From Planctomycetota bacterium (GTDB taxonomy: Bacteria > Planctomycetota > UBA1135 > JADKAF01), in contig JAEUHW010000353.1 in the NCBI GenBank assembly GCA_016793245.1, positions 1 to 64,000 of the forward strand: a stretch of DNA of 64,000 nt. The letters are read 5' to 3'. Under the pieces are notes generated by a model. The model was not told where the DNA came from. It did no database searches and was given only the letters and a program-made list of their open reading frames with translations. Positions within the stretch are counted from its first letter, which is position 1. The number at the start of each line of letters is the position of its first letter. Shown here piece after piece: positions 3,764-15,017 of the stretch. Position numbers and translations under genes: made by a program.

Positions 3764-5458
3764 ATGCCTTGCTCGGTGCCGCTCGACCGTGCGTTGGTGT
3801 CCATCGCCGCGCTGCTCTTCGGCGGCAGCGCGGTAGCATCAGCGCAAACCGTCGAACGCGTCAGCGTGAGTTCGTGGGGCTCTCAGCCTCTCGTCCGCCA
3901 CGTGTACGTGAATCGCCCCGATCAGAGCATCTCGGCGGACGGTCGCTGGATCGCCTTCTGCAGCATGTCGGCCGAGCTCGTTCCCGGTGTGGGCGGCCAC
4001 TTCTCGATCTTCCTGCACGACCGCTGGACGCACGAGACGACTCTGGTCTCGCGGCGTTCGGACGGGAGCGCCATCTCGATGCCGAATCTCTATCCCGCGT
4101 TGACGCCGGATGGGAGATTCCTGGCCTTCCGTTCCGAGGACCGAGTCCTTCATGGAACCAGCAATACCAATGCTCAGATCTACGTGAAGGATCTGCATTC
4201 GGGCGTGGTAAGGCTCGTCAGTCGTACCCCTGCCGGGCTTCCAGGTAATCTTCACGCAGTGGGTGCGCCTTCGATCTCGGATGACGGGCGCTTCGTTGCA
4301 TTTGCAAGCTTCGCCAGCGACCTGGTGCCCGGAGACACGAACGGCCGAGAGGATGTCTTCGTCCACGATCTAACAATGGGGATCGTCAGTCGAGTCTCGC
4401 TCTCTCCTTCGGGCGTCGAGGGGAATCGCGCGAGCGTCCAACCGTGGATCGCCGGAGATGGAAGCGCCATCTTGTATTTCGGTGGCGCGACCAACTTCTA
4501 TCCCAACACTCCGATCAACACCGCGTTGGTCATGTGGCGCGACCTGCGGACAGGGCAGACCCTGTGCGTGAATCAGGACGCGTCGGGTCAGATCATCGGC
4601 GGAGGATATGGGCCCAGCGCGATTTCGGCGGATGGTCGTCTGGTCTGCTTCAATTCCAATGTGGGGGGGCTCGTGCCGGGTGACACGAACCTGCGCTGGG
4701 ACGTCTTCGTGCGCGATGTGACGACGTGGCAGCTCGAGCGCGTGAGCGTGGATTCGAACGGCAACCAAGGCAATCTCGACAGCTACGGTGGGAGGCTCTC
4801 TCGCGACGGCCGCTTCGTCGTCTTCAAGTCGGAGGCGACGAACTGGTTCTCCGGCCGTCCTGCGAACGTGCTCTACCTCCACGATCGCGTGACCCGCACG
4901 ACGCGCCCCGTCTGCGAGGACGCCTTCGGCAACCCCGCGGATCACATCAGTGCCTACGGCGTGATCTCTGGCGATGGTCGCGTTGTGGCGTTCGATAGCT
5001 TCGCGACGAACCTCGTGCCCGACGACACCAATCGCGAGACCGACTTCTTCGTGCGCGACGTGGAGTGCCCGTCGATCGCGGGCGCCTACGAGCGCGGCTG
5101 CACCGGTTCGAACGGCCGGATCCCGCTGGTCTACCTCGCGGGCTGCCCGAGCGCGGGGCGCGACATCGCGCTCGGCGTGAAGGGCACCTTGCCGAACGCC
5201 GCGACGGCGGTGATCTTCGGCGCGCAACGAGGGAGCTTCCCGCTCGATGCGAATGGCTGCACCGTGCTCTTGGATGCGTTCTTCCTGAGCTCGACGCTGC
5301 TCCTGCCGACCGACGCGGAAGGCAACGCTCACTTGCCGCTGCGCATTCCAGCGTTGCCCGGATTGCGCGGCGACTTCGCGCTGCAGGCGCTGGTCTTCGA
5401 TGCGGGGACGGCGAGCGGGCTCGCGACGACGCGGGGGATCGAGGTGCGGATGCGCTGA
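3764..5458 (+). CDS. Secreted TolB/PD40-type beta-propeller protein
   Basis: Exported protein of 564 residues with a signal peptide (hydrophobic ALVSIAALLFGGSAVASA, cleavage probably after ASA). Residues about 30-440 hold repeated propeller blades, each with an S(A/D)DGRxxAFxS core and a partner LVPGDTNxxxDVFVHD or close variant; at least six copies are seen. The D-x-N-containing loop may bind metal. After VRDVECPSIAGAYERGC comes a Cys-containing C-terminal beta domain ending in FALQALVFDAGTASGLA, a layout common in planctomycete surface proteins (family knowledge, not proven here). A strong GAAGGAGGAA precedes the ATG. The end of this gene has a decayed copy at 13993-14130. Ligand or enzymatic role is unknown. 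Confidence 0.8.
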   Translation: MPCSVPLDRALVSIAALLFGGSAVASAQTVERVSVSSWGSQPLVRHVYVNRPDQSISADGRWIAFCSMSAELVPGVGGHFSIFLHDRWTHETTLVSRRSDGSAISMPNLYPALTPDGRFLAFRSEDRVLHGTSNTNAQIYVKDLHSGVVRLVSRTPAGLPGNLHAVGAPSISDDGRFVAFASFASDLVPGDTNGREDVFVHDLTMGIVSRVSLSPSGVEGNRASVQPWIAGDGSAILYFGGATNFYPNTPINTALVMWRDLRTGQTLCVNQDASGQIIGGGYGPSAISADGRLVCFNSNVGGLVPGDTNLRWDVFVRDVTTWQLERVSVDSNGNQGNLDSYGGRLSRDGRFVVFKSEATNWFSGRPANVLYLHDRVTRTTRPVCEDAFGNPADHISAYGVISGDGRVVAFDSFATNLVPDDTNRETDFFVRDVECPSIAGAYERGCTGSNGRIPLVYLAGCPSAGRDIALGVKGTLPNAATAVIFGAQRGSFPLDANGCTVLLDAFFLSSTLLLPTDAEGNAHLPLRIPALPGLRGDFALQALVFDAGTASGLATTRGIEVRMR

Positions 5459-5462
5459 GGCG

Positions 5463-12999: not shown

Positions 13000-13866
13000 T
13001 CAGGTACAGGTGACGAAGCTCGCGATCATCTGCGCGGCCAGCTCCGGATACTGATGCTGGGGGCCATGGCCACAATCGGGATAGGTGACGACGAACAGCG
13101 TCGGCCAGAGATCGTTCAGCGCATACCAGTTCTCGACGGGAAACATGATGTCGTGATCTCCACAGAGGGCCAGCACGGGGATGCTCGTCGTGCGGAAGAA
13201 CGCGGAGAGAGCACCCTCGGGATCCGGGAACGGCGAGGAGGGATCGCTCGATGCGGCCAACGAGCTCAGGAACACGTCGGGCGGCGTGATGCGGTCTTTC
13301 ACGCCGCTGCGGGAGGCGATGCGCGCGAGAGAGTCATCCGCGAGGCGGCGGCTGCGGCTCGAGCTCGGCTCGAAGAAGAGGACGTACTCGTCTTCCACGG
13401 AGTAGACCGGCTTGGTCGCCGCTTCGAAGAACAGCGGCTCGAACGGCTTGATCATGGGGCCGGGAGGCATGGTGGCGATCGCCAAGACATGGCTCACCTT
13501 CTGCGGATGCATGGCCGCGTACACCATGGCCGCGAAGCCACCCAGCGACCAACCTCCGAGGATCACCTTCTCGAGGCCCAAGGCCTCGACCAGGTCGTGA
13601 ACGTCCTTGGCCATCGCGGCCTTGGCATAGCTGGGCGTTCCCGTGGAGAGCCCCAGTCCAGAGTAGTCGAACACGGTCACCGTGAAGCTCTGCGCCAGCG
13701 TATCGAGGAACAGCGGATCCCACAGGTCCAACGTGCCACGAAAGCGCATGCAGAGCACGAGATCCGGGCCCTCGCCGAACCGGCGATAGGCGAGCTCGCG
13801 TCCATCGATCTTGGCGCTTCGATTCGGCGCCGTGAGCGCAGAGAACTTGGATTCGGTCTTGGTCAT
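13000..13866 (-). CDS. Alpha/beta hydrolase
   Basis: A 288-residue alpha/beta hydrolase with nucleophile Ser in LGGWSLGGFAAM, acid Asp in VLALCGDHDIMFP and His in YPDCGHGPQHQ. No signal peptide. I used the ATG at 13866, preceded by GAAAGGGTG, rather than an upstream GTG at 13908 that adds 14 unlikely residues. Substrate cannot be deduced; motif spacing fits general esterase/lactonase-like members. It is separated from the sigma factor gene by about 220 bp in which I see no gene, and stands alone on its strand. Confidence 0.83.
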   Translation of the reverse strand: MTKTESKFSALTAPNRSAKIDGRELAYRRFGEGPDLVLCMRFRGTLDLWDPLFLDTLAQSFTVTVFDYSGLGLSTGTPSYAKAAMAKDVHDLVEALGLEKVILGGWSLGGFAAMVYAAMHPQKVSHVLAIATMPPGPMIKPFEPLFFEAATKPVYSVEDEYVLFFEPSSSRSRRLADDSLARIASRSGVKDRITPPDVFLSSLAASSDPSSPFPDPEGALSAFFRTTSIPVLALCGDHDIMFPVENWYALNDLWPTLFVVTYPDCGHGPQHQYPELAAQMIASFVTCT

Positions 13867-13992
13867 GAGGGCACCCTTTCCATGGTGGGCGGCGTCGAGC
13901 GAAGGCACGCGCAGTGCGGGCGAGAGAGGATGCCTGGTCAGGCAGGCCCCTTTTCGGCCGGAGGTCGCTGCAGGTGCTGACCTTCGTACTGA

Positions 13993-14130
13993 GCGTGGGG
14001 AGGTGGACAGGGTCTCCCGCTGCTGCGCCGCTCTCTTCGCTACGCATTCACGCTACAGGCGCTGGTCTTCGATCCGGGCACGACGAGCGGGCTCGCGACG
14101 TCACGGGGGATCAACGCGCGGAGGCGCTGA
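13993..14130 (+). pseudogene. Remnant of a secreted propeller-type gene, C-terminal end only
   Basis: The frame ending at TGA 14128-14130 encodes FTLQALVFDPGTTSGLATSR, which matches the end of the propeller gene at 3764-5458 (FALQALVFDAGTASGLATTR), including the closing RGI..R.R and a stop in the same place. Only about 30 codons align clearly; further upstream an LPLL segment may still correspond. There is no start codon or signal peptide, so this is the tail of a lost paralogue rather than a gene. Confidence 0.7.
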
Positions 14131-14138
14131 GGATCGCT

Positions 14139-14175
14139 GTCGATCAAATAGGGGTCTGACCCCTATTTGATCGAC
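14139..14175. repeat. Perfect 17-bp palindrome with GGGGTCTGACCCC core
   Basis: GTCGATCAAATAGGGGT pairs perfectly with ACCCCTATTTGATCGAC around a CTG loop. It starts nine bases after the remnant's stop codon and is AT-rich compared with its surroundings, which suggests a foreign or mobile short palindrome (REP-like) rather than a native terminator. Confidence 0.75.
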
Positions 14176-14187
14176 GGCGAGGATTCG

Positions 14188-14263
14188 CGGGCTTCGCCCG
14201 TTAGCCGGTCGGCCGGCACGCTTGAAGTGCAATCCCGTTGCACCTTGGCTCCCTACATAGGGA
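14188..14263. repeat. Cluster of three further short palindromes before rsmE 3' end
   Basis: Three small hairpins follow in series: CGGGC-TTC-GCCCG (14188-14200), GTGCAA-TCCCG-TTGCAC (14227-14243) and TCCCTA-CA-TAGGGA (14250-14263). They end five bases before the rsmE stop codon. They could terminate rsmE transcription or be parts of a decayed mobile element. Confidence 0.5.
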
Positions 14264-14267
14264 CCGA

Positions 14268-15017
14268 TCACCCGCGCTCTGCGTTCGTCCGCCCGCTGGC
14301 GCGCGCGAGCGAGAGCTGCCCCCAAGCCGCCGCGAGCGCCGCTTCCACGCGCAGCGGATGCGGGCCGAGCGAGCAGCGCGCGAAGCCGCGCTGGGCGAGC
14401 TGCTCGAGCTCGTAGTCGATCCAGCCGCCTTCGGGCCCGAGCGCCAACGTGTAAGGCTCGTCGGCGAGCGCGCGGCTCGGGCCGAGCTGCTCGCCGGGGT
14501 GGGCCAGATAGCGCGAACCCGGCGGCGCCCACGCCTCGAGCTCGTCCTCGACGAAGGGGCGGAAGAGCGGGAAGAGCCGAACCTCCGGCAAGTGCGTGCG
14601 GCGGCCTTGCTCGAGTCCCAGCAGGAGCTGCTCCCGCAGCTCCTCGGCGCGCAGAGCCTGCGCGCCGAGGTGGCTCTTCTCGACGCGCCAGGAGCGCACG
14701 AGCGCGATCTTGCCGAAGCCCATCGCCGCGGCGTCCTCCAGCACGCGCTTCAGGACCTTCGGACGCGGCACGGCGAGGAGGAGCGCGTCGCGCGGCACGG
14801 GCGGCGCCTCGTTCTCGAAGCGCGCGCGGAGGAGCACGCCGCCCGCGGCGTCGCTCAGCACCTCCGCGTGGCCGAGAGCTCCGCCGAGGAGGCCCGCGCG
14901 CACGATGGAGCCGACTTGCACGCGCAGCACGGTGCGCAGGTGATGGGCGCGGCGGTCGCGGAGCTCGACCTCGCCGGCGTGGGAGAGCTCTTCGGGGCGG
15001 AGGAGGAGGAGGTTCAT
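14268..15017 (-). CDS. rsmE: 16S rRNA (uracil1498-N3)-methyltransferase RsmE
   Basis: SPOUT-class methyltransferase of 249 residues that methylates N3 of U1498 in 16S rRNA using S-adenosylmethionine. The N-terminal PUA-like part begins NLLLLRPEELSHAGEVEL and contains DRRAHHLRTVLRVQVG; the SPOUT knot motif is TLALGPEGGWIDYE, followed by SLGPHPLRVEAALAAA. The ATG at 15017 places the protein at the family's usual length; longer in-frame extensions to 15161 look non-coding. It is divergent from the FKBP gene. Confidence 0.9.
   Translation of the reverse strand: MNLLLLRPEELSHAGEVELRDRRAHHLRTVLRVQVGSIVRAGLLGGALGHAEVLSDAAGGVLLRARFENEAPPVPRDALLLAVPRPKVLKRVLEDAAAMGFGKIALVRSWRVEKSHLGAQALRAEELREQLLLGLEQGRRTHLPEVRLFPLFRPFVEDELEAWAPPGSRYLAHPGEQLGPSRALADEPYTLALGPEGGWIDYELEQLAQRGFARCSLGPHPLRVEAALAAAWGQLSLARASGRTNAERG

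Follow-up and report, generated by a model that had tools for sequence, protein, structure and literature searches.

The interval considered here lies in a 64,000-nt stretch of DNA from a Planctomycetota bacterium (the window), between a gene for an alpha/beta hydrolase (13000-13908, minus strand; PF00561, E 5.2e-28) and rsmE, which encodes a 16S rRNA (uracil1498-N3)-methyltransferase (14268-15017, minus strand; PF04452, E 2e-24; NF008700, 252.7 bits, cut-off 252). Between the two genes, reading from the hydrolase gene, come a gene remnant, a palindrome, and a stretch of weak hairpins. The remnant (14047-14132, plus strand) consists of 27 codons and a stop codon, and is related in frame to the end (5375-5460, plus strand) of the PD40 beta-propeller gene at 3764-5458, with 75 of 86 nt identical (87%). 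The original prediction, that the tail of a lost paralogue of this gene ends at 14130, was correct in its relationship and end point, but the tail is shorter than supposed; likeness at the DNA level is confined to 14047-14132, and positions 13993-14046 lie outside the match. A search of the genome for the parent of the remnant, as had been advised, returned 5357-5455 and the remnant itself, with no other protein matches at E ≤ 0.001. The remnant has its own stop codon (TGA, 14128-14130), 8 nt ahead of the repeat unit described below, and its DNA similarity to the propeller gene stops 2 nt past this codon, 1 nt short of the extended palindrome.

The palindrome (14139-14175, assigned to neither strand) is perfect over 18+1+18 nt, and is made up of GTCGATCA, an AT-rich linker, AGGGGTC-T-GACCCCT, a second linker, and TGATCGAC. 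Arm comparison and DNA folding extended it to 23+1+23 nt with one mismatch (14134-14180), the arms 14134-14156 and 14158-14180 being 96% complementary around one central base. A perfect palindrome had been predicted right after the remnant, and it is indeed present at 14139, but it is perfect for 37 nt only. Its predicted contrast in composition with the surroundings was also confirmed, as it is richer in AT, with 16 G or C in 35 nt (14140-14174) versus 70% for the fetched loci and the window. Folded as DNA, the window palindrome reached -25.2 kcal/mol (z -10.35), and none of 200 shuffled sequences did equally well. Rfam at gathering scores found one tRNA in the window and nothing else.

Between the palindrome and rsmE there are four weak hairpins (14188-14264, assigned to neither strand) that lie outside the palindrome family. 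Folding of 14183-14265 gave z -2.8 on the plus strand (4 of 200 shuffles equally good) and -3.1 on the minus strand (0 of 200). Part of this stretch (14225-14260, plus strand) is a portion of a low-copy repeat that has two further places in the genome, on contigs C257 and C259. The further hairpins of the original prediction exist, but they are weak and separate from the palindrome repeat, and what had been taken for an island is not one unit, as the palindrome and the hairpin piece recur separately in the genome. The three copies of the low-copy repeat (14225-14260 in the window, L228:1501-1559, and L229:1501-1536) carry a GTGCAA..TTGCAC hairpin followed by CTTGGC..CTACATAG; the repeat lies 7 nt past the rsmE stop codon in the window, and 23 nt past an ORF stop codon in L229.

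The palindrome belongs to a family that is dispersed through the genome (family 1). The family core, AGGGGTCTGACCCCT, had 51 exact matches in the 7.57-Mb genome, while the reversed control had none, and a looser pattern found 64 copies. These counts, together with the folding result, rule out a chance palindrome. With a 92-nt query from the window, matches elsewhere comprised the palindrome and up to about 20 adjacent bases, and extended no further. Forty-three regions around copies were fetched, picked from among the matches listed for the core, the looser pattern (128 strand-wise matches in all), and the 92-nt query. Six of 87 core-like matches had no GATC arms and were excluded (one of these, L094:6899, resembles a degenerate copy), leaving 81 copies, which represent a sample and not the whole family. 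Many copies lie near contig ends, for example on C49, C50, C268, C277, C305, C322, and C409, and in 16 of the 81 one side lacks a called gene up to the end of the contig or of the fetched stretch; repeats at contig ends may have broken the assembly, with the result that copies are undercounted. Two copies, L106:253 and L122:2489, have near-identical flanks and opposite central bases, and represent a duplicated stretch that took its palindrome with it.

Pairing analysis of the 81 copies divided the unit into two parts, an inner stem and an outer arm. Counting from the centre, pairs 1-6 of the inner stem are kept in 76 to 81 copies and pair 7 in 56, with pair 2 being TA in 63 copies and CG in 16. 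The AT-rich linker (positions 8-10) is loose, and pairs no better than shuffled sequences. In the outer arm, pairs 11-16 are kept in 71 or 72 of 81 copies, pair 17 in 62 of 80, and pair 18 in 45 of 78, the last two values being above those of 499 of 500 shuffles, while from position 19 outwards pairing falls to chance level. Pairs 2, 17, and 18 covary across the copies.

Neighbouring copies less than 300 nt apart formed 26 pairs, of which, with orientation read from the central base, 16 are '-+', five '--', four '++', and one '+-'. The doublets of L108 and L125, which are at unrelated places, had a spacer score of 52 (99% null, 23) and a best outer-flank score of 21, and those of L131 and L133 scored 46 (99% null, 20) and 19, respectively. 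A weaker spacer match between L133 and L095 was no better than their own outer flanks. Because the spacers are shared while the outer flanks do not match, the doublets appear to have been copied as one unit. REPINs and BIMEs, in which two inverted units move as one, are comparable to these '-+' pairs and their shared spacers.

The same palindrome surrounds a transposase gene. Its product, P0001 (C282:3377-4333, equal to L094:3377-4333; 318 aa, start codon not certain), is the best Y1_Tnp match of the genome (PF01797, E 4.9e-9); it scored 66 bits to the NCBI profile REP_Tyr_transpos, below the cut-off of 80, and its nearest PDB sequence was TnpA_REP 4er8 (E 4.6e-4). Inverted palindromes flank the gene at C282:3280-3312 and 4323-4355, the second of which is identical to the window copy at 46 of 46 nt and contains the stop codon of P0001, and an exact inverted repeat of 36 nt surrounds the gene (L167). 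A second protein, P0002 (C80; L032:26-973), is 56% identical to P0001 and adjoins a different palindrome, TTGCACAGAAAAGGTGCCTGGCACCTTTTCTGTGCAA; the copy on one side of the gene is complete, and the one on the other side is truncated where the contig begins. The family of this palindrome (family 2) has the core AGGTGCCWGGCACCT, with 106 exact copies in the genome. Phylogenetic tree reconstruction placed P0001 and P0002 as sisters (support 100/100), with the homologues of genomes G152 and G354 as the next pair (98/94). Only these two genes of their kind were found in the genome, indicating that the transposase gene itself hardly multiplies. At the C-terminus, P0002 matched HTH_23 (1e-4), HTH_28 (4e-4), and DnaA_C (0.0043), and P0001 matched DnaA_C (0.004) at the expected place, all below the Pfam cut-offs. 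In both proteins, both His and the Tyr motif (YIHLNPV and YVHLNPV) are present, and the middle residue of the HUH motif is Asp (NHDH); among homologues whose motif was recognised by the search, this residue was Y, F, V, L, W, or I, and the G152 enzyme is regular in this motif. It is because both transposases have NHDH instead of H-hydrophobic-H that their activity is regarded as unsure.

In a phylum-wide comparison that was able to fail, 391 other genomes were searched separately for P0001 and for the family-1 core. A P0001 homologue (E ≤ 1e-20) was present in 47 genomes, the best being that of G152 (E 4e-54), and the core was present in five, with 57 copies in G152 and one or two in each of the remaining four. 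The genome with the best P0001 homologue was, among the 391, also the sole other genome with many cores. The G152 transposase gene has an identical 43-nt palindrome on both sides, which carries the same inner core as family 1 and another outer arm, CTACTGTCACC. Six G152 units read at four loci (L232, L251, L256, and L258) have one inner core and three outer arms, as if several sub-families shared one core. Genome G354, with the second-best homologue and sister to that of G152, had zero copies of the core, and its short locus had no palindrome and no inverted repeat of 14 nt. Across 19 homologue loci at the phylum level, ten had exact inverted repeats 14 nt or longer, spaced at a gene-like distance and containing GGTC in all ten and GGGGTC in seven, and nine had none. 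At the order level, exact inverted repeats of at least 17 nt, spaced 700-2400 nt apart, were found in 21 of 29 homologue loci (and were lacking in the other eight) versus 0 of 29 rsmE loci, and their sequences were mostly unlike family 1. The rsmE loci of relatives (the best about 50% identical, from genomes without the repeat) served solely as the control for inverted repeats. At one locus, L179 of genome G020, a transposase homologue lies between nearly identical 83-nt palindromes (1249-1331 and 2510-2592). Contigs of named organisms were scanned with the palindrome pattern and by alignment of P0001 and P0002, and neither scan yielded a locus, the 28 pattern matches of the second being all unconfirmed.

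The explanation preferred here, with a probability of roughly 85%, is that the window palindrome belongs to a TIRYT/TIRtron system as a non-autonomous, REP-like repeat, namely the dispersed, self-palindromic inverted terminal repeat of the gene for P0001, a tyrosine (Y1) transposase that would act on single strands. The repeat is dispersed, flanks a transposase gene, occurs together with that transposase in a distant genome, forms doublets with shared spacers, and is placed at stop codons (see below). The earlier suggestion that the site is one where a mobile or once-mobile element inserted is well supported by the 51 cores, the flanked transposase, the doublet spacers, and the distant co-occurrence. 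The transposase has probably spread the repeat to dozens of places, mostly beside gene ends. The mechanism proposed leans by analogy on E. coli-type enzymes, for which single-strand cutting is described in PMC8266576. In DNA made single-stranded by replication or repair, the unit would fold into the hairpin GGGGT(CTG)ACCCC and an outer arm; as for which arm the protein would read, the transposase may recognise the inner core, possibly along with the outer arm. It would then cut beside the unit, and rejoin single units or inverted doublets elsewhere. Copies within genes would be removed by selection while those beside stop codons remain, some of the retained copies supplying the stop codon themselves, often as ..SIK*. 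The window copy would have landed, or been kept, 8 nt past a stop codon, and the body of the gene lost later, with the last 27 codons still recognisable.

TIRYTs were described by Di Nocera et al. (2013; PMC3733652) as RAYT-like genes flanked by inverted repeats, some with GGGGWSAS, and some of the repeats are reported there as dispersed, dimeric, or self-complementary. P0001, an IS200-like Y1 gene between terminal inverted repeats, corresponds to this description, and P0002 has a partial second copy. GGGGWSAS is represented by GGGGTCAG on one strand of family 1, and is not shown by family 2 (AGGTGCCW..), while the 51 exact cores and 26 neighbouring pairs make up a dispersed family with dimers. 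The system is accordingly classed as a TIRYT/TIRtron, and as a high-copy member whose REP-like behaviour is unusually clear. It differs from TIRYTs as presented in that text by having two sister transposases in one genome, with a separate palindrome family for each (51 exact cores in one family and 106 in the other), and by showing in TIR-type repeats the stop-codon position that was reported there for GTAG and CGTC REPs. In the classification of Quentin et al. (2018; PMC6006769), 20 of 26 TIRYTs belong to subclass 2.1, characterised by a C-terminal DnaA_C/HTH_23/HTH_28-like domain, and the authors' searches, in their account of this subclass, found no REP-like sequences nearby. The system described here has a Y1 core and a weak C-terminal match of just this type, and probably belongs to subclass 2.1, or RAYT group 1, but palindromes lie beside both of its genes and are dispersed as well. 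Two sister genes that resemble this subclass, and that each go with a high-copy REP-like family in one genome, thus contrast with what the survey of 2018 reports on subclass 2.1.

Similarities to the elements of other RAYT groups (GTAG REPs, REPINs, and BIMEs) include short palindromes, inverted doublets, a cognate Y1 transposase, a place at gene 3' ends, and stop codons within the element. In contrast to GTAG REPs, the 91-nt consensus of the 81 copies has no conserved GTAG foot, and the palindrome of family 1 has two parts and a length of about 37 nt. CGTC is the commonest outer-end sequence in family 1, as in CGTC REPs, but in the descriptions available for the latter it is an unpaired tag next to a stem of 8-9 bp with a loop of 4-5 nt, whereas in family 1 it lies in the outer arm, with GTC (positions 16-18) mostly paired. 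CGTC REPs are also said to lack a transposase, which family 1 has. Both family cores were sought in the open-licence PMC literature, and no paper was found.

To place the units relative to genes, gene calls were made with a simple, home-made gene finder based on codon usage, and the stop-codon analysis rests on these calls. Of 55 family-1 clusters, 12 lay out of reach of any gene 3' end and were left out, and in 33 of the remaining 43 a unit edge was no more than 15 nt from a stop codon, a closeness shared by 7.6% of noncoding bases. For gene 5' ends the corresponding values were 7 of 47 clusters and 10.1% of bases. Family 2 provided an independent set (30 loci of the 106 cores, three of them left out without a gene 3' end in reach), and 25 of its 27 assessable copies lay within 15 nt of a stop codon. 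In gaps of at least 30 nt, single units within 12 nt of a stop codon numbered 11 of 13 in family 1 and 9 of 9 in family 2, with 2.1 expected in each, or 20 of 22 in the pooled families versus 4.2 expected; outside these 22 were units in called genes (one in family 1 and three in family 2), units in divergent gaps (three and one), and all gaps shorter than 30 nt. That the palindrome's own stop codons create the closeness was considered and rejected, as only a minority have the stop inside the unit (10 of 33 close clusters in family 1, and 7 of 25 close copies in family 2); it is wholly outside in 20 (at 0-12 nt) and 18, respectively, and touches the unit by one base in three of family 1. Targeting of stop-like triplets was likewise rejected, because 954 of them are located at stops or in noncoding DNA and only 177 are real stops. 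The stop codon has an identical palindrome position in nine family-1 clusters, usually within TCG ATC AAA TAG (..SIK*); the in-palindrome stops of the ten clusters comprise nine at -13 and one at -8. Measured against called genes the window copy is an apparent exception, 92 nt from the stop codon of rsmE, but it lies 8 nt from the stop codon of the remnant, within the usual range.

These positions resemble those reported by Di Nocera et al., in whose data, for the REP-rich genomes analysed, convergent GTAG-1 and CGTC-1 REPs are mostly less than 20 bp from 3' ends, and GTAG REPs frequently supply the stop codon. The two families described here suggest that such parking extends beyond GTAG and CGTC REPs. 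The placement in both families, and the excess in the longer gaps, also fit a different explanation, in which the palindromes are host-functional 3'-end signals (two-way terminators, protectors of mRNA, or ribosome-stalling hairpins) selected at gene ends, with the link to the transposase secondary; covariation of some arm pairs would be consistent with it. This alternative is considered unlikely. The flanked transposase gene, the second transposase-palindrome pair, and the co-occurrence in G152 would all be left unexplained, and a terminator scan of 13850-14450, which covered the window copy, found zero sites of the intrinsic type (a hairpin followed by a T run). The looser palindrome pattern was, in addition, absent from all 100 order-level relatives (the nearest genomes compared, all of other families), unlike a general 3'-end signal. 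The palindrome is, then, neither unique in the genome, as the search proposed with the original prediction established, nor a conserved terminator of rsmE. An origin as a mobile unit and retention as a 3' element can hold together.

The original prediction had gone further, taking the palindrome as the probable mark of a recombination or insertion site that had lost a surface-protein gene by deletion. A true remnant does end 8 nt ahead of the unit, and the similarity ends 1 nt before the extended palindrome, but diverged paralogues would be expected to stop matching at about this point in any case, 2 nt past the stop codon. As units of two families sit at stop codons genome-wide, a palindrome beside the remnant is expected without any deletion at the palindrome. 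Of the 81 sampled copies, one is located within a gene, and 53 occupy tandem or convergent gaps or extend across gene 3' ends. Among eight proteins with the stop codon in a palindrome (P0001 excluded), seven had a Pfam match, which in six reached to within 10 positions of the profile end, so that these do not look cut off (the exception, Amidohydro_2, ends at 253 of 289), and one had none. A recombination hotspot with deletion of such a gene is accordingly judged very improbable. On the preferred reading, the unit was parked behind the gene that the remnant represents, and this gene was lost later, in a separate event, the order of the two being inferred. Adjacency to a gene remnant does not by itself make a palindrome the scar of a deletion.

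A broader proposal, tentative but possible, extends the TIRYT/TIRtron reading to group-1 RAYTs (TIRYTs) in general. These would drive two-module palindromes, in which the inner core, AGGGGTCWGACCCCT, persists with the transposase clade across families while the outer arm is free to vary, as with TCGATCA in this genome and CTACTGTCACC next to the G152 transposase gene. When the transposase was duplicated in this lineage, one copy would have retained the original core, and a new palindrome, with the core AGGTGCCWGGCACCT, would have evolved with the other. In the boldest form of the proposal, units would be placed at stop codons by targeting, for example of a single-stranded or hairpin-bearing end of the transcription unit, and not by selection alone. 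If it is true, P0001 and P0002 form a natural pair in which the change of hairpin by a Y1 enzyme can be tested. The two sister genes with their palindrome families, and the recurrence of transposase and core together in a distant family, offer a clean test of transposase-palindrome specificity.

That some other Y1 protein moves the palindromes instead of P0001 is the least probable of the alternatives, since, although the genome has many Y1 genes (51 further Y1_Tnp matches) and one of them resembles REP_Tyr_transpos, the family-1 core was beside none of the 28 of these loci that were searched (L033-L060), while P0001 and P0002 each lie within their own palindrome family. The other Y1 genes at L033-L060 were not detected with P0001 at E ≤ 1. 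The further matches, which include C109:12709-12900 (L033) and others on C170, C9, C186, C367, C256, and C228, are possibly a multicopy Y1 family of another class. The one gene of this set that was scanned matched REP_Tyr_transpos below the cut-off, and several of the 51 are paired, about 1.6 kb apart.
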